A DNA stretch of 24,577 bases from a virus. Below the pieces are notes generated by a model, which was not told the origin of the DNA, searched no databases, and saw nothing but the letters and a program-made list of their open reading frames with translations. Positions within the stretch are counted from its first letter, which is position 1, and each line of letters opens with the position of its first letter. Of the stretch, positions 2,376 through 23,722 are shown piece after piece. The position numbers were made by a program, and so were the translations under genes. Location: IMG/VR virus record IMGVR_UViG_3300044712_001809, positions 1 to 24,577 of that record. One strand, 5' to 3'.

Positions 2376-3152
2376 TTACTCCTTGATACGCTGGGCCAGG
2401 CGCTTGCGGGCCTGGTCGAGCTCGAATTTGACCCGGCGGGCATCCGTCTGGGTCCGAGGCGCGGCGCTCAGAATTGTGTGGAGCGAGGAACGAACGTCGT
2501 CCAATCCCGAGAACATCTCAAGGAGTTCCGATAATTCTTGCCGCTTGACTTCATTCAGCGGGCGGTTATCTGCCAGCCCGCGAATTTCATCCATCAGTTG
2601 TTGCAGTCCCTTCCCATACATTTCCACTTTGGCCGCCAGGGTCATCTCAGGACTGGAAAGATAAGACAGGAAGTCTTTGACGCCGGTCACGACCGCTTCT
2701 TCATTCATCGGCATAGCCACGAGCGAGGATTCGTACAGCGTGACTTCGTTCAACTCGCGGACATTTTCCTTTTCGTCATAAGTCCAGACGTCCGTGTGGT
2801 AGCCCATTGAGAAGCTGTCCAGGGCCCCGTCTTTCAGCAGCTCGTGGGTGTCTTCGCCCAGGCGGGTCTTGGAGATGCGGAACTTTCCAAACAGCCCTTT
2901 GGAATCCTGGTGTAGCTTGAGCGGCGCGCCCAGGATCTGGCGCGGGTCGTGATCGCGCAGGAAACGCACCTTTGGCCCTTCCTTGAGGGTCTTGGTGAAG
3001 GCGCCTGGGCGAACGATATCGCGCCCGAGGTCCACATTGTCAAAGGTGGACACATACCCGGATACCTCCCACTCATCGCCGGCAGCCTTAAACTCGGCGA
3101 TCTGGATCGGGAAACTATACAGCGTGTTGGAATTGACGGTTTTGGGTGCCAT
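2376..3152 (-). CDS. Prohead (maturation) protease, HK97/U35 family
   Basis: This 258-aa serine protease would cleave the scaffolding domain of the capsid protein during head maturation. Landmarks are FPIQIAEFKAAGDEWEVSGYVSTFDNVDLGRDIVRPGAF (split over residues 14-52), a catalytic His candidate at 68 in RDHD, a catalytic Ser at 115 in DSFSMGY, and YESSLVAMPMNEEA at 140-153. All are conserved positions of the family. The C-terminal ~90 residues are helical and charged and may act as a scaffold. ATG 3152 was chosen for its AGAGG site; it overlaps the end of the glycosyltransferase gene by 38 bases. The capsid gene begins 4 bases after its stop, so the two are surely cotranscribed. Confidence 0.92.
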   Translation of the reverse strand: MAPKTVNSNTLYSFPIQIAEFKAAGDEWEVSGYVSTFDNVDLGRDIVRPGAFTKTLKEGPKVRFLRDHDPRQILGAPLKLHQDSKGLFGKFRISKTRLGEDTHELLKDGALDSFSMGYHTDVWTYDEKENVRELNEVTLYESSLVAMPMNEEAVVTGVKDFLSYLSSPEMTLAAKVEMYGKGLQQLMDEIRGLADNRPLNEVKRQELSELLEMFSGLDDVRSSLHTILSAAPRTQTDARRVKFELDQARKRLAQRIKE

Positions 3153-4245
3153 AGGCTGCCTCTTGATTTGGAATAGATCCGGGAGCATCCCCCCGGTAAT
3201 GAGCGGTAATTTCGTCCCAGGCCTCGACCCAGCGCCAGGCCTGGCGGGTGAGGGAGTGTTCGCGACGGACCTTTGCCAGCAGGCGCTTGCTCAGGTCACG
3301 GCGCAGGGTATAGCTTTCGACCAGCAGCGAGAGATAACCTTCCCACTCGTCCACGCTGGTCGCGAGATAGCCGTTCACGGTGGGGTCGATCAACTGGCTA
3401 TAAACCGTGGGGCTCGCCACAACCGCCGCGCCGGAAGCGGCATATTCCATCGCCTTGATGTAGGTTTTGGCCCGGTTGAATTTCGTATCCCCCAGCGGAC
3501 AGCAGCCGATATCGATGTTGACCAACCCGGCCGGATACTGGTCGATCGGCATCCAGTCCAGCATGGCGATGCGCTCGTTAGGAACTAGGTCATATAAAAC
3601 TTTGGCGTGATGGCCCTGGATGACGAAGGTCACCTGCGGATAGCGTTTGGCAATCCGTGCCCAGGCCCGCGCCATGATTTCGACGTCCGCGTCGGGGCGA
3701 TTTCCGCCGGCCCAGCCGATGGTGAGACCTGGCACCTGGCGCTGTGCCGCTTTCTGGACCTTATGGAACCAGGTCAGGTCAATGAAATTGGGCACGACCT
3801 TGACCGGCTGGTCGGTGTATTCGCGCACCATCGTTGCCAGGCGCTGGCCAGAGACCGTCACGCCGTCGCAGGAGCGCAGCGCGTGCAGGATGCAGCTCTG
3901 GCGCTCTTTGGCTTCCGCCGGGCTCTTGCCATGCTGGACGACCAGCCGCCGGACAAAATCCTCACTGAACAGGTCGTCGTCTACCTCGTAGATCACGGCG
4001 AGGCCGGCCCGGTGAAGGGCCTTGAACCACTGATCAGCTTTGGCGCGCTCTTCGATGGGCCAGTGCAGGCGGGGCAGGATCACGGCGTCAAACTGGTGGA
4101 CGATTTGCGCGAGCCGGTTATCCTCGCGCATGCCCCACTCGATGCCGCGGTAGCCCTGGCGCTGCAGCTCGGTGAAGGGGAGTGCAATTCTCCAGAGGAA
4201 GCATCCATCTTGTTCGCCCACAAGTGCGAGAACTTTAGCGTGCAT
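3115..4245 (-). CDS. GT4-like (GT-B fold) glycosyltransferase
   Basis: This 376-aa protein resembles GT-B family 4 transferases that move a sugar from an activated donor to an acceptor. The N-terminal half has MHAKVLALVGEQDGCFLWRI, a segment FDAVILPRL and IYEVDDDLF, then VTVSGQRLATMV and VKVVPNFIDL. The C-terminal donor domain starts at LTIGWAGGN and contains KTYIKAMEYAASGAAVVASP, the E-containing motif (x7-E-like) of the family. The start at ATG 4245 has GAGAGGG close upstream; the longer in-frame start would run into the divergent HNH gene. It lies immediately before the prohead protease gene, so virion or capsid glycosylation is a reasonable guess. A near-copy of its first codons sits 700 bases upstream behind the HNH gene (see the relic at 4922-4951). 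Confidence 0.85.
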   Translation of the reverse strand: MHAKVLALVGEQDGCFLWRIALPFTELQRQGYRGIEWGMREDNRLAQIVHQFDAVILPRLHWPIEERAKADQWFKALHRAGLAVIYEVDDDLFSEDFVRRLVVQHGKSPAEAKERQSCILHALRSCDGVTVSGQRLATMVREYTDQPVKVVPNFIDLTWFHKVQKAAQRQVPGLTIGWAGGNRPDADVEIMARAWARIAKRYPQVTFVIQGHHAKVLYDLVPNERIAMLDWMPIDQYPAGLVNIDIGCCPLGDTKFNRAKTYIKAMEYAASGAAVVASPTVYSQLIDPTVNGYLATSVDEWEGYLSLLVESYTLRRDLSKRLLAKVRREHSLTRQAWRWVEAWDEITAHYRGDAPGSIPNQEAAYGTQNRQFQHAV

Positions 4246-4267
4246 ATTCCCTCTCGATGGTTGAGGG

Positions 4268-4276
4268 TGGTATAAT
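4268..4276 (+). promoter_or_regulatory. Extended -10 promoter for the first HNH gene
   Basis: TGG followed by TATAAT (4271-4276) forms an extended -10 element. No good -35 is seen at 16-18 bases upstream. It lies 31 bases before the HNH start and only 23 bases upstream of the divergent glycosyltransferase ATG, so the HNH gene appears to carry its own promoter. Confidence 0.5.
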
Positions 4277-4306
4277 GCTATTACTATCGACATGGGGAGA
4301 CGCATC

Positions 4307-4930
4307 ATGCCACAAAAGAAAACTATTCAACGAACATGCGGAATTTGCGGGAAATTTTTCTTTACCTCTCAATACGAGATTGACAAGGGGCGAGGTAAAT
4401 ATTGCTCGAAAACATGTCGCAATGCTGGGAATAAACGCCCTGCAGAAGCCCGCTTTTGGAACAAGGTTGATAAAACCAATGAAACCGGTTGTTGGATTTG
4501 GATCGGTGCAAAAAGACACGCTCTTGGTTATGGCGGCTTTTACTTCAACGGTCGCTGGTCTCACGCTCATCGGGTTTCTTACGAAATTGCCAACGGGCCA
4601 ATACCAGAGGGCGAAGAAATTCTTCACCTTTGTGACAATCCAGCGTGTGTTAACCCGGCGCATCTTGTGGCTGGAACACACGCGGAAAATATGGCTGATG
4701 CCCACAAAAAAGGCCGTATAGTAGGCGGTTTTTATAATATTCTTGAAGGAAATCGCCCATTGGGAGAGAAGCACGGCCAGTCTAAATTGACAGATGATGA
4801 TGTGCGTGAGATAAGACGAAAATACGAAGTTGAAGGTATCAAAGTCACTGAGTTGGCCAGACAGTATGAAATGACCCATGCTCAAATCGGCGCGATTGCC
4901 AGAAGAAAAGCATGGACTCATATCACTTAG
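4307..4930 (+). CDS. HNH homing-type endonuclease with zinc finger and C-terminal HTH
   Basis: This 207-aa protein has three parts. Residues ~8-38 form a treble-clef-like zinc finger (CGIC and YCSKTC). The centre is an HNH_3 nuclease ([35 protein letters not shown], then THAENMADA). The C-terminus is a resolvase-like HTH ([40 protein letters not shown]). Such free-standing nucleases cut phage DNA at a site and are copied by repair. ATG 4307 was chosen over ATG 4292 because GGGGAGA precedes it by 6 bases. It is antisense to the late operon, AT-richer than its neighbours and has its own -10 element, all signs of a mobile gene. It is related to the second HNH gene in the core only. Confidence 0.9.
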
Positions 4931-5289: not shown

Positions 5290-5757
5290 ATGGATACACC
5301 ATCCAATCAAAAGATTTTCAAAACACCAGGTGAAATTTTAGAAATTTATAACTCTGGATATAGTCTCAAAAAAATCGGGGAAATGTTTGGCGTAAGCCAG
5401 GAAAGAATTCGGCAATTACTCAATAAGACAAAGGAATACGTTAGTCATCCTACATACAGACCAAGTATTGTCCGATTTTGGTCTAAAGTAGAAAAATCCG
5501 ATAATTGCTGGATTTGGATTGGGGCCAAAACTCCAGAAGGATACGGAAGAATGCGCTGGATGAAAGGATATGAATACGCCCACAGAATTTCGTGGGTTAT
5601 TCAAAACGGAACTATAGCAGACGATTTATGTGTCTGCCATAGTTGCGATAACCCTTCATGTGTTCGACCAGATCATTTATTTATCGGCACGATTGCTGAT
5701 AACATGCACGATAGAGATACTAAGGGTCGAGGAAGAAAACCAAAAGTAAACAATTAA
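5290..5757 (+). CDS. HNH homing-type endonuclease with N-terminal HTH
   Basis: This 155-aa protein starts with a sigma-region-4-like helix-turn-helix (residues ~12-45, LEIYNSGYSLKKIGEMFGVS then QERIRQLL). The HNH_3 nuclease core follows ([40 protein letters not shown], then ADNMHDRDTKGR). The core is clearly homologous to that of the first HNH gene, but the DNA-binding attachments differ, so the two would recognise different sites. AAGGA lies 9 bases before the ATG. The gene is strongly AT-rich against its surroundings, is antisense to the late operon, and ends one base before the methyltransferase stop, which suggests a recent, precise insertion between genes. Confidence 0.9.
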   Translation: MDTPSNQKIFKTPGEILEIYNSGYSLKKIGEMFGVSQERIRQLLNKTKEYVSHPTYRPSIVRFWSKVEKSDNCWIWIGAKTPEGYGRMRWMKGYEYAHRISWVIQNGTIADDLCVCHSCDNPSCVRPDHLFIGTIADNMHDRDTKGRGRKPKVNN

Positions 5758-5758
5758 A

Positions 5759-6517
5759 TCACATGTTCTTTTTGGTCTTTTTGGCCTTTGCCGGTGGTTG
5801 AAACTCGGCATGGTCAAGGGCGTCAATATATTCAGGGGGTAAAACCGGAGCGACAAATTCCGGCTCCTCGGTCTCAACAGGATCCGGCAGCGGAGTGATG
5901 CGGGTAAACACGCGCTTGATCGTGGTCTTTGGAAATGGGGCATAGGCTTCGCAGGAATGAGCTTCGACCTGCTGCCACCCTTCAGCCTCGATGATCTTTT
6001 GATAATCATGTGGCCAGGCGTGGAAAGAAGGCGGTCGTTCGCCTTCGATGGTGATGATCAACCGGCGCGCCTTTTTTGCCATTTCCTGGATCACCCATTC
6101 TTGATCGGGAGGCAGGTGCATCAGGAGGCCCTGGGTAAACACCACATCAGCTTTCACAAAGTCGATGTAATTCGCGATCGCGTCTTCTACCGGCGCAACC
6201 AGAACCGGAATTTCGCGAAACTCTGGAAAGGTTGCATTGCCCAGATTGACTGCGTCCTGGTTGATCTCAAGTCCACAAAGATATTTATACCCAGCTTGAT
6301 GGAGACTAGCCAGGTTACGCCCGGTGCCCGAGCCCAGCTCAAGAATGTGCATTTCAGGTGAGGCATACTTGTTCAGCGTTTCCACCACCAGCCGGGTCAC
6401 ATTGACCAGGTCAAGGTAAAACTCTGGGCGGCAGTGCGAGATCACATTCTCACCGTAAGCATCGACGTTTGCCGGCGCGCCTGGATTTTTCCAAAATGCT
6501 TGACGATCGAATTTCAT
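5759..6517 (-). CDS. SAM-dependent class I methyltransferase
   Basis: This 252-aa protein has a class I Rossmann methyltransferase core. Motif I is HILELGSGTGRNLASL (residues 57-72), the acidic loop GLEINQDAV (82-90) would hold the ribose of SAM, and the segment ADVVFTQGLLMHLPP (about 123-137) is motif IV/V-like. There is no NPPY or PC motif of a DNA methylase; the layout is closer to methyltransferases that act on small molecules, sugars or proteins. The last ~50 residues are a Pro/Glu-rich tail ending in a Lys-rich patch. The RBS AAGGAGG overlaps the stop of the preceding gene. Given the nearby glycosyltransferase, methylation of a virion glycan is one possibility; the substrate cannot be read from the sequence. 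Confidence 0.82.
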   Translation of the reverse strand: MKFDRQAFWKNPGAPANVDAYGENVISHCRPEFYLDLVNVTRLVVETLNKYASPEMHILELGSGTGRNLASLHQAGYKYLCGLEINQDAVNLGNATFPEFREIPVLVAPVEDAIANYIDFVKADVVFTQGLLMHLPPDQEWVIQEMAKKARRLIITIEGERPPSFHAWPHDYQKIIEAEGWQQVEAHSCEAYAPFPKTTIKRVFTRITPLPDPVETEEPEFVAPVLPPEYIDALDHAEFQPPAKAKKTKKNM

Positions 6518-21443: not shown

Positions 21444-21623
21444 GTGAATACCCCCAACGGCCGCGGCCGGGTGCAGGGCCGGCTCGAAATGAAGGGCCAG
21501 CCCGAGCGGATCCTGATCGCGCACACGCCCGAAGTGGGCGGCGAGTGGGTCAAAAAGGACCCGGATTGGATGGGCGGCGGCTGGGTGCTCAAACACTACG
21601 ATCCAAAGGACGTGACGGCATGA
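21444..21623 (+). CDS. 59-aa small soluble protein
   Basis: The coding part is VNTPNGRGRVQGRLEMKGQ, ERILIAHTPEVGGEW and GGWVLKHYDPKDVTA, a compact SH3-like beta pattern seen in small phage proteins. The frame is open further upstream, but that part is the shadow of the two-TM gene. GTG 21444 (or CTG 21432, overlapping the stop) is the likely start, with translation coupled to the upstream gene because no ribosome binding site is seen. Confidence 0.6.
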   Translation: MNTPNGRGRVQGRLEMKGQPERILIAHTPEVGGEWVKKDPDWMGGGWVLKHYDPKDVTA

Positions 21624-22027
21624 GCCAGACAGATTACTCCCACTGGTACCAGGAACTGCGCGACCGGGTCACCGATGAACTGCAGCGAAAAGTCTACGAC
21701 GAGCTGGACGGCCACTTCGATGAAGAGCATGCAGTGAATTTCAAGGCCTTAGTGGTCAAGGTGTGCGGTGAGTACAACATCTCGACCGAGCGCGAGGTTC
21801 GGATTGCGATCACCGAAATGCGAAACAACGGGATTGCGATCGGGTCCACCAGCGGCAAGCCCGGGCGCTGGCTGATCGTCACAGAGGAGCAGCGCCAGAA
21901 GTTCATCGCCGAGCATCAGAGCCGGATCGATGAGGAAACCACCACCATCCGGGCCGCCCGTACCTGGGTATTGCCGGCGAAGTGGAAGGATGCCTCGCGC
22001 AAGAAACAACTGGGATTGTGGGCATGA
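21620..22027 (+). CDS. Winged-helix-like early protein
   Basis: The 135-aa protein starts by ATGA overlap. Residues ~20-100 read as a winged helix: helix DRVTDELQRKVYDELDGHF, helix FKALVVKVCGEYNI, recognition-helix-like REVRIAITEMRNNG, then a wing GIAIGSTSGKPGRWLIVTEE. The tail is charged and basic. It lies immediately upstream of the initiator gene, so a replication accessory or DNA-binding regulator is likely. Confidence 0.68.
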   Translation: MSQTDYSHWYQELRDRVTDELQRKVYDELDGHFDEEHAVNFKALVVKVCGEYNISTEREVRIAITEMRNNGIAIGSTSGKPGRWLIVTEEQRQKFIAEHQSRIDEETTTIRAARTWVLPAKWKDASRKKQLGLWA

Positions 22028-22875
22028 GCAATAAGCACATCGACGCCGCGTGGAAGGTGACCTCGGTCAATGGCAGCGCCAAACTGCTGCTGGTAGCGTT
22101 GGCTGATATGGCCGATAAAGAGACCGGCCAATGCTACCCGGCTACACCTACCCTGGCGGCGAAGATTGGGGCGAGCGAACGCCAAACCCAACGCCTGATT
22201 GACAAACTGAGCGCTCTACACCTCATTGCAATCGAGCTGCGAGTGGGCACCAGCAGTCTCTATACGGTGTTAGGTGGTGACACCCATGTCACCACCCCAC
22301 CCCCAACCGGTGGTGACACCGGCGTCACCCCAGTGGTGACACCTATGTCACCAGGTGGTGACACCCATGTCACCCCAGTGGTGACACCCATGTCACCCAA
22401 ACCCTTAATTAACCCATTACCTAACCCTTCTTCGAACCGGGGGAGCGCGCCGGGAAAAAGTTCGAAGTCGAAACCGCTGGAATACCCGCTGGATTACGAC
22501 TGGGAAATGTTGATGCCGATCGATTACCAGCGGGTGCCGGAATTGAAGCTCTTTGCAAAGGTGACCGGCGGGCGGTATCCACCCCATGCGCTGCTGGGGG
22601 AAGTGGTGCAAACGATCCGAACTGGCTGTTTGAGCGAAAAGGATCTGAGCACCGCGTACCGAAAATGGGTCTGGAAGGGGTTCAAAACTGAGAACCTGGG
22701 TTGGCTGAGCGATTGGGCGCCGGCCGTAAAGAAAGGGGAACAACCCTGGGAATTCAAACGGCCCGGCGGCCAGGCTGAAACGGTTCCGAAGCCCCGACAG
22801 CCCAACCAGGTAAGCCCGGAGCAATCCTTAAAAGATCTACTGGCAGGTCAAAATGCTAAACCGAGTATGGCCTAA
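22024..22875 (+). CDS. Replication initiator, O-like, with N-terminal winged HTH and internal iterons
   Basis: The 283-aa protein starts by ATGA overlap at 22024. The N-terminus (KHIDAAWKVTSVNGSAKLLL, then VALADMADKETGQCYPATPT, LAAKIGASERQTQRLIDKL) is a winged helix of the phage replication protein O/DnaD-like type. Residues ~85-125 are a low-complexity linker encoded by the iterons. The C-terminal part (LFAKVTGGRYPPHALLGEVV, AYRKWVWKGFKTENLGWLSD) resembles initiator C-domains that contact the helicase loader. The gene for a DnaC-like loader follows directly, as in the lambda O-P or phage O/DnaC order. The protein probably binds the iterons inside its own gene. Confidence 0.82.
   Translation: MSNKHIDAAWKVTSVNGSAKLLLVALADMADKETGQCYPATPTLAAKIGASERQTQRLIDKLSALHLIAIELRVGTSSLYTVLGGDTHVTTPPPTGGDTGVTPVVTPMSPGGDTHVTPVVTPMSPKPLINPLPNPSSNRGSAPGKSSKSKPLEYPLDYDWEMLMPIDYQRVPELKLFAKVTGGRYPPHALLGEVVQTIRTGCLSEKDLSTAYRKWVWKGFKTENLGWLSDWAPAVKKGEQPWEFKRPGGQAETVPKPRQPNQVSPEQSLKDLLAGQNAKPSMA
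22276..22397 (+). repeat. Five iterons: probable replication origin inside the initiator gene
   Basis: Five copies of GGTGACACCCATGTCACC (each an inverted repeat GGTGAC/GTCACC) start at 22276, 22312, 22335, 22357 and 22380. Copies 1, 4 and 5 are identical; copy 2 has GGC for CAT and copy 3 has TAT. Spacing is 36, 23, 22 and 23, close to two helical turns for the last four. Copies 3 and 5 are read in another frame (VTPMSP) than copies 1, 2 and 4 (GDTHVT), so the DNA, not the peptide, is conserved. The arrangement parallels lambda ori inside gene O. Confidence 0.85.
22398..22432 (+). other. AT-richer segment next to the iterons (candidate unwinding element)
   Basis: Immediately after the last iteron the sequence becomes AT-richer and contains TTAATTAA (22405-22412) and three AACCC copies. 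In lambda-type origins such a segment beside the iterons is where the strands first open. Confidence 0.45.
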
Positions 22876-23722
22876 CGAATTGCAGGTGTACATGAACGAC
22901 CCGAAAGCGGTACCGCTCGCCTCTGGAGATATGCCCAACCTTTGCCCGAACTGTGGGGGTCATCAGATCCTGATGGTGTACGTGGTCAAGGATGGCCCGT
23001 TCCAGACACCGACCGGCGGCAAGGTCAAATGGCTGGATATGCCGGACGGCAAGAGCGGCTGGTATGCAGGCGAGCTGAAGGTGGCCTTCTGCCCGGCCTG
23101 CCGCGCGAGTGGATTGAATGAGTACCTGCTGAAAAACTGCGGGCTGGAAGGCAGCGACCTGAGCATCAGCCTGGGCGATTTCTCCGTTGTAGGCAGTTAT
23201 GCCAGGAAACAGGCTGCGAAAGAGATGGCCGGCCGGCTGCTGGGCATGAACGATAAGCCCGGCGGGTTCATCACCTTCTACGGCGCCTACGGCTGCGGCA
23301 AGAGCCACCTGTTGAAGGCGCTGGTCAACGGCTTTCGAGCGATCGGCGTGGTCGCGCAGTACCAGGTCATGAGCGAGATGCTGGCCTCCATCCGGGAGCG
23401 CTTTGGCAACGAGCAGGGCCAGGTCCGCGCGGAAGACGTGATCGAGCATCTGCAGCGCATCCGGGTGCTGTGCCTGGATGAGATCGAGCGTATCAACCTG
23501 ACCGGCTGGGCCAAAGAGACGGTCTTCCGGGTCATGGATACCCGCTACAACCGCACCGACCTGCTGACGGTCATGGCGACCAACTGCAATCCGGACGACC
23601 TGCCGCCAGAGTTTGGCTACCTGTCCAGCCGGATGCGCGCTGGCGTGATCGTCGAGGTGCCCGGTCCCGACGTGCGCGAAGCGCTGGGCATGCAGACCCG
23701 GCGGGTTTATGGGATGGAATAG
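22853..23722 (+). CDS. DnaC-like AAA+ helicase loader
   Basis: The 289-aa ATPase would load the replicative helicase at the origin. Two Cys pairs (Cys31/34 in LCPNCGG, Cys80/83 in FCPACR) form an N-terminal zinc site. Walker A is GAYGCGKS (residues 144-151), Walker B is VLCLDE (205-210), then a sensor (TVMATNC) and an arginine-finger region (YLSSRMRAGVIVEV). ATG 22853 overlaps the initiator gene by 23 bases; ATG 22892, after AGGTG, is an equally possible start. It is directly downstream of the O-like initiator. No replicative helicase gene is seen in the window, so the host DnaB may be recruited. Confidence 0.9.
   Translation: MLNRVWPNELQVYMNDPKAVPLASGDMPNLCPNCGGHQILMVYVVKDGPFQTPTGGKVKWLDMPDGKSGWYAGELKVAFCPACRASGLNEYLLKNCGLEGSDLSISLGDFSVVGSYARKQAAKEMAGRLLGMNDKPGGFITFYGAYGCGKSHLLKALVNGFRAIGVVAQYQVMSEMLASIRERFGNEQGQVRAEDVIEHLQRIRVLCLDEIERINLTGWAKETVFRVMDTRYNRTDLLTVMATNCNPDDLPPEFGYLSSRMRAGVIVEVPGPDVREALGMQTRRVYGME

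Follow-up and report, generated by a model that had tools for sequence, protein, structure and literature searches.

Origins of replication that lie inside initiator genes are known from lambda, and to our knowledge neither the origin nor the specificity is known for most phage initiators. The DNA analysed here, called the window below, is the whole of IMG/VR virus record IMGVR_UViG_3300044712_001809, which is 24,577 bases long and possibly a fragment. One of its genes carries an array of dyad repeats, whose function and relation to the encoded protein are considered here.

The replication block

Profile scans of the window revealed the tailed-phage genes for terminase, portal, integrase and RecT. 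Bordetella phage BPP-1 was among the closest named relatives of the terminase (44%). An early gene block on the + strand starts at about 16 kb and contains the array. GC skew tracked gene orientation; on a linear fragment whose gene blocks point in opposite directions, it could not locate an origin.

The gene with the array encodes a replication initiator (Table 1), and its start codon is ATG. The protein matched HTH_36 (PF13730) with 41.3 bits, compared with a curated cut-off of 25 (E=1.4e-10). This was its sole significant Pfam match, RepA_N (PF06970) being unmatched. Residues 1-83 form the winged helix (HTH_36), followed by the repeat-encoded linker. The C-terminal half had no profile match, including PHROG and known helicase-binding domains. 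The initiator gene overlaps both neighbours, the helicase-loader gene at its 3' end and the small gene on the other side at its start codon (ATGA). The two features that we looked for in an HTH_36 initiator, a palindromic array in the linker and a replication gene next to it, were both found.

Table 1 Features of the replication block, in window coordinates.
Feature	Position	Strand	Remarks
Small gene	21620..22027	+	phrog_2113, E=7.5e-8, unknown-function family; same operon as initiator
Replication initiator gene	22024..22875	+	283 aa; PF13730 match; PHROG replication initiation families
Recognition helix, residues 52-64 (E-R53-Q54-T55-Q56-R57-L...)	22177..22215	+	Predicted model; Arg57 codon 22192-22194
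Iteron 1 GGTGACACCCATGTCACC	22276..22293	+	Frame GDTHVT
Iteron 2 GGTGACACCGGCGTCACC	22312..22329	+	Frame GDTGVT; most divergent copy
Iteron 3 GGTGACACCTATGTCACC	22335..22352	+	Frame VTPMSP
Iteron 4 GGTGACACCCATGTCACC	22357..22374	+	Frame GDTHVT
Iteron 5 GGTGACACCCATGTCACC	22380..22397	+	Frame VTPMSP
AACC-repeat element	22400..22438	+	AACC at 22400, 22411, 22423, 22435; spacing 11/12/12
AAA+ helicase loader gene (DnaC/DnaA-like)	22853..23722	+	PHROG DnaC-like helicase loader E=1.2e-23; Pfam AAA, Bac_DnaA

Elsewhere in the window, two adjoining + strand ORFs (4292-4930 and 5290-5757) had HNH-endonuclease-like sequences and are probably homing endonucleases. They sit in a low-GC island (39-47%, compared with about 60%) amid - strand late genes. 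On the - strand, inside the structural gene block, two further ORFs looked by eye like a glycosyltransferase and a methyltransferase (3115-4308 and 5759-6517), and a role in sugar or other modification is possible.

The iteron array

Five 18-bp dyads (GGTGACAcCnaTGTCACC) lie inside the initiator gene, spaced 36/23/22/23, and the array begins directly behind the winged-helix domain. Both the coordinates and the shuffle statistics agreed with the preliminary description of such an array. When up to three mismatches were allowed, the 18-mer had six matches in the window, compared with 0.01 expected per shuffled window. The dyad arms are 7+7 bp (GGTGACA/TGTCACC) in four copies and 6+6 bp in the copy at 22312.

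Translation of the iterons in two frames, as GDTHVT or VTPMSP, had been noticed before and was found again. Counted from the start codon, the copies at 22276, 22312 and 22357 are in frame 0, and those at 22335 and 22380 are in frame 2. The third frame cannot be read through, since the TGA within the half-site (GG-TGA-C) puts a stop in every copy. In some relatives, for example L008 (603-640) and L009 (7380-7415), the TGA of the last iteron terminates the HTH ORF, that is, the gene stops within its own array.

The 5' copy had been described as standing one half-period apart. This holds only approximately, the first gap (36) being about 1.6 times the mean of the others (22.7 bp). Gaps of 33-36 recur in relatives, for which the preferred values were 19, 23-24 and 33-36. 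Helical-period analysis of the repeat spacing gave no sharp period.

The AACC element behind the array

The stretch that follows the repeats is richer in AT, as had been described (60% at 22398-22437, compared with 37% in the array). Inside it we found a feature absent from that description, an ordered run of AACC repeats. A run like this occurred in 1 of 200 random windows.

In relatives with arrays, a run of AACC copies 10-13 bp apart follows, on the coding strand. Of 48 arrays, 40 had the first AACC exactly 3 nt past the last GTG..CAC core, and the window is one of these. Runs of at least two AACC were found downstream of the array in 38 of the 48, and in none of them upstream or on the other strand. 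Among 176 relatives, 154 had at least two AACC within 41 nt, whereas codon shuffling predicted 59. In relatives AACC occurs in each of the three reading frames (88/46/20), and therefore it is the DNA and not the peptide that is conserved. The element is independent of the half-site class. In a more diverged set selected by DNA, the run was present in only 12 of 43, or in 17 of 43 when A[AT]CC was accepted (about 0.5 and 1 in shuffles). It is probably an unwinding element kept in register with the last iteron, and is weaker in distant relatives.

Repeats in related initiators

When the window protein itself was the query, neither viral nor genome contigs yielded a close relative. Fifteen diverse HTH_36 members shared about 30% identity with the domain of the window, and R53 and R57 were invariant among them. 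Because this 15-sequence alignment was too diverse, narrower alignments were used for a pattern scan. Scanning viral contigs for GGTGACACNNATGTCACC gave 110 stretches, about half of them in HTH_36 genes and mostly in arrays that follow the winged helix, like that of the window. Among the single GTGAC matches, about half fall outside HTH_36 genes, and these look like chance. The GTGAC array was present even in very diverged HTH_36 initiators, in the same position after the winged helix.

Relatives were also picked by protein alone, regardless of repeats, which gave 316 loci (184 non-redundant). The first batch comprised 102 non-redundant genes; in about 65 of these, de novo palindromic repeats behind the winged helix scored higher than in codon-shuffled controls. 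The repeat types included GGGTGACG..CGTCACCC, GGGTGTCG..CGACACCC, GGTGTCC..GGACACC, GGGTGAAG..CTTCACCC and others. The half-site, GTGxyz, varies among subfamilies, and its position in the gene is usually the same. Repeats inside the gene are therefore the rule, and their sequence diversifies. The preliminary description had staked its reading on conserved repeats in homologues; these were present in most relatives, with the refinement that they change with the recognition helix.

One subfamily (L270, L272, L274 and L276; helix EKQARR/EKQARV) had long arrays of up to 8 copies at 18 bp of a different, CCCGTGGACGGGAG-like repeat that encodes PPVDVTPPVDVTP.

Recognition helix and half-site change together

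Covariation was examined in the 51 non-redundant genes whose GTGxyz-N4-x'y'z'CAC array was clear, with residues numbered as in the window. Of 27 genes with Arg57, 22 had GTGAC; of 19 with Lys57, 18 had GTGTC and one had GTGGC (Fisher p=1e-8). On a FastTree tree calculated from the domain minus the recognition helix, residue 57 and the base after GTG changed 14 times each, 10 of these on the same branches (p=5e-8). Position 57 was the best of all columns, far ahead of the runner-up, position 54 (p=1e-3). Relatives differing at residue 57 were grouped as twenty disjoint pairs. The closest pair, L129/L200, is 95% identical outside the helix, yet L129 combines PRNVQK with GTGTCG and L200 combines PRSVQR with GTGACG. 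In the reverse test, Arg57 was found in all 44 non-redundant HTH_36 genes that had been detected only via the DNA repeat. The window, with helix SERQTQR and GTGACA, obeys the Arg57 rule. Among named phages, Arg57 and GTGAC arrays were found in Curtobacterium phage Root and Vibrio phage 1.205.O.

There were departures from the rule. The Arg57 genes L304 and L289 have other half-sites, and the Eesa/Daob clade (Arg57) had no clear GTG array. Three further Arg57 exceptions (L147, L149 and L404) were called GTGTCA; their register is ambiguous, since GTGTCAC is GTGACAC on the other strand. A rule by which an uncharged residue 57 goes with GTGAA was tried and rejected. It fits the Gln, Thr and Asn cases (L257, L349, L155, the Andrew-type Arthrobacter phages and Thermus phage Cumys, the last two having Asn/Gln57 and GTGAAC), but fails for Decurro and Kels, which have Ala57 and GTGTCG. 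When position 54 was included, Asn54 with Lys57 went with GTGTCG in 15 of 17 genes, and Ala/Ser54 with Lys57 went with GTGTCC. A two-residue rule is suggestive, from few independent cases.

That helix and repeat changed together points to a readable matching rule between them. We lean towards the view that HTH_36 phage initiators have a simple recognition code, in which mainly residue 57, helped by residue 54, would set GTGxyz. Helix and origin would switch together, which would sort otherwise near-identical phages into mutually compatible replication groups. The same view includes a family-specific unwinding element of AACC repeats at the end of the array, its distance from the last iteron being constant; the initiator or the loader might read it as single strand.

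Predicted structure of the DNA-binding domain

Residues 1-83 of the initiator were modelled with a pLDDT of 91. Among solved structures, the best matches were RbkR in complex with its operator, with Z 10.8, and CRP, with Z about 9-10. Entry 4pql, described as the N-terminal domain of a DNA-binding protein and presumably a plasmid RepA domain, matched with Z 8.5 over 76 residues. We take SRETVGR to be the CRP helix motif and the counterpart of SERQTQR in the window. The CRP site TGTGA contains GTGA, and GTGA is found in the half-sites of both. By inference from the aligned ranges and these motifs, Arg57 would correspond to Arg185 of CRP, which is among the three CRP residues that contact bases (PMC12531629). 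The comparison agrees with a reading of the base pair after GTG by Arg57, and is no proof of it. Although the predicted fold is close to that of the CRP/FNR proteins, aligned identity is about 15% and CRP is a transcription factor with a cAMP domain. The likeness between CRP and the initiator may be convergence.

Comparison with known origins

The preliminary description had called the locus a lambda-like origin. The architecture agrees with this: an origin-like array lies in a winged-helix initiator gene, and a loader gene adjoins. The lambda ori in gene O (L432) likewise has four 18-bp dyad iterons with 20-24 bp spacing within the initiator gene, then an AT-rich stretch on the 3' side, then the helicase-loader gene. 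The protein, however, belongs to HTH_36 and not to the lambda O family. Lambda O matched PF04492 and TIGR01610 (5.7e-36 and 5.4e-39), whereas the window protein had no match to these profiles up to E=1 (Pfam) or 0.1 (NCBIfam). The AT-rich stretch of lambda differs too, being an A-rich purine tract without AACC repeats. The iterons were rightly described as unlike those of lambda (ATCCCTCAAAACGAGGGA), but the new specificity suspected for them is not peculiar to this phage, as GTGAC is a widespread HTH_36 specificity.

Residues 140-292 of lambda O matched phrog_391, while the C-terminal half of the window protein had no PHROG match. The N-terminal part of phrog_391 matches the window (HTH_36) and its C-terminal part matches lambda O. 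The composition of this family suggests that DNA-binding and loader-binding halves are exchanged between initiator families.

Plasmids offer a second comparison. In pSK41, the RepA_N origin boxes are central in rep and encode a linker, and the N-terminal DNA-binding domain is a winged helix; the Rep of pPR9 has an HTH_36 (pfam13730) N-terminal domain, which was exchanged together with the origin region and gave autonomous replication (PMC5703833). Linker-coding origin boxes within rep and a winged-helix N-terminal domain are thus shared with the window. Unlike the window, these are plasmids, and their C-terminal domain binds primase. Decurrovirus and other small phages of Arthrobacter and Curtobacterium have the same HTH gene type, with in-gene repeats and the AACC element. 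Decurro and Kels differ from the window in their half-site, GTGTCG. No experimental origin mapping for Decurrovirus-type phages was found in the literature searched.

Probable origin function and its alternatives

Taken together, the sequence makes it highly probable that the array is the replication origin of a tailed phage, intragenic and lambda-like, inside its own initiator gene. The dyads could instead be operators, through which a winged-helix regulator represses the initiator/loader operon from within its own gene, with the origin elsewhere. Dyads bound by winged-helix proteins are commonly operators, the nearest folds (CRP, RbkR) are transcription factors, and autoregulation may well accompany origin binding. 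We nevertheless regard operators as unlikely: the repeats are found about 250 bp into the gene and number 3-5 per array, a strand-specific AACC/AT-rich element usually follows, a helicase loader adjoins, and relatives are assigned to replication initiation. In pPR9, moreover, an HTH_36 Rep and its intragenic region make a working replicon (PMC5703833).

Iteron arrays are also used for plasmid partition and copy control, and some relatives sit on extrachromosomal elements. On that account, the array might serve a plasmid prophage in partition, as a centromere-like site, or in incompatibility, and not be an origin. This is quite improbable, given an integrase gene in the window, no ParA/ParB seen among the ten proteins scanned, and an unwinding-like AACC element and a helicase loader that fit initiation. 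Least credible is selection on the protein, with a GDTHVT/VTPMSP linker kept as a flexible or binding segment and the similarity of the DNA left by recent duplication. The array does encode a Pro/Thr-rich linker, and identical sequence recurs in three of the five copies. The two frames, however, give unrelated peptides; linker peptides differ greatly among relatives while the palindromes are kept, and the repeat sequence tracks the recognition helix and not the linker. The proposal that selection acts on the DNA is supported by these same points.

Our analysis establishes the anatomy of the locus, a constraint at the level of DNA, the joint variation of helix and repeat among relatives, and the constant phase of the AACC element; binding, dimerisation, melting, helicase loading and origin function we infer. 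At such an origin, the winged-helix domain would bind to each 18-bp dyad, for which the covariation is indirect support, and would probably do so as a dimer. Each GGTGAC half-site would receive one recognition helix, whose Arg57 would read the base that follows GTG. Once all five phased sites were filled, the DNA would be remodelled. The adjoining AACC-repeat stretch would then melt, and the loader from the neighbouring gene would place the host replicative helicase on the opened strand.

Significance

That the window holds an intragenic phage origin of a known general kind is well supported by its sequence, and the window itself is an ordinary member of its family. The novelty lies in two features of the family, its helix-repeat covariation and its phased AACC element. 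No report of either was found in the open-licence literature searched, which is weak evidence of novelty. If the rule holds, origin and half-site would be readable from large numbers of unannotated HTH_36 genes, and it would be possible to predict which phages, prophages and plasmids in a co-infection have compatible origins. Natural pairs like L129/L200 would then allow direct tests of how initiator-origin specificity evolves. The fixed AACC element is a concrete candidate for where and how HTH_36 origins open.
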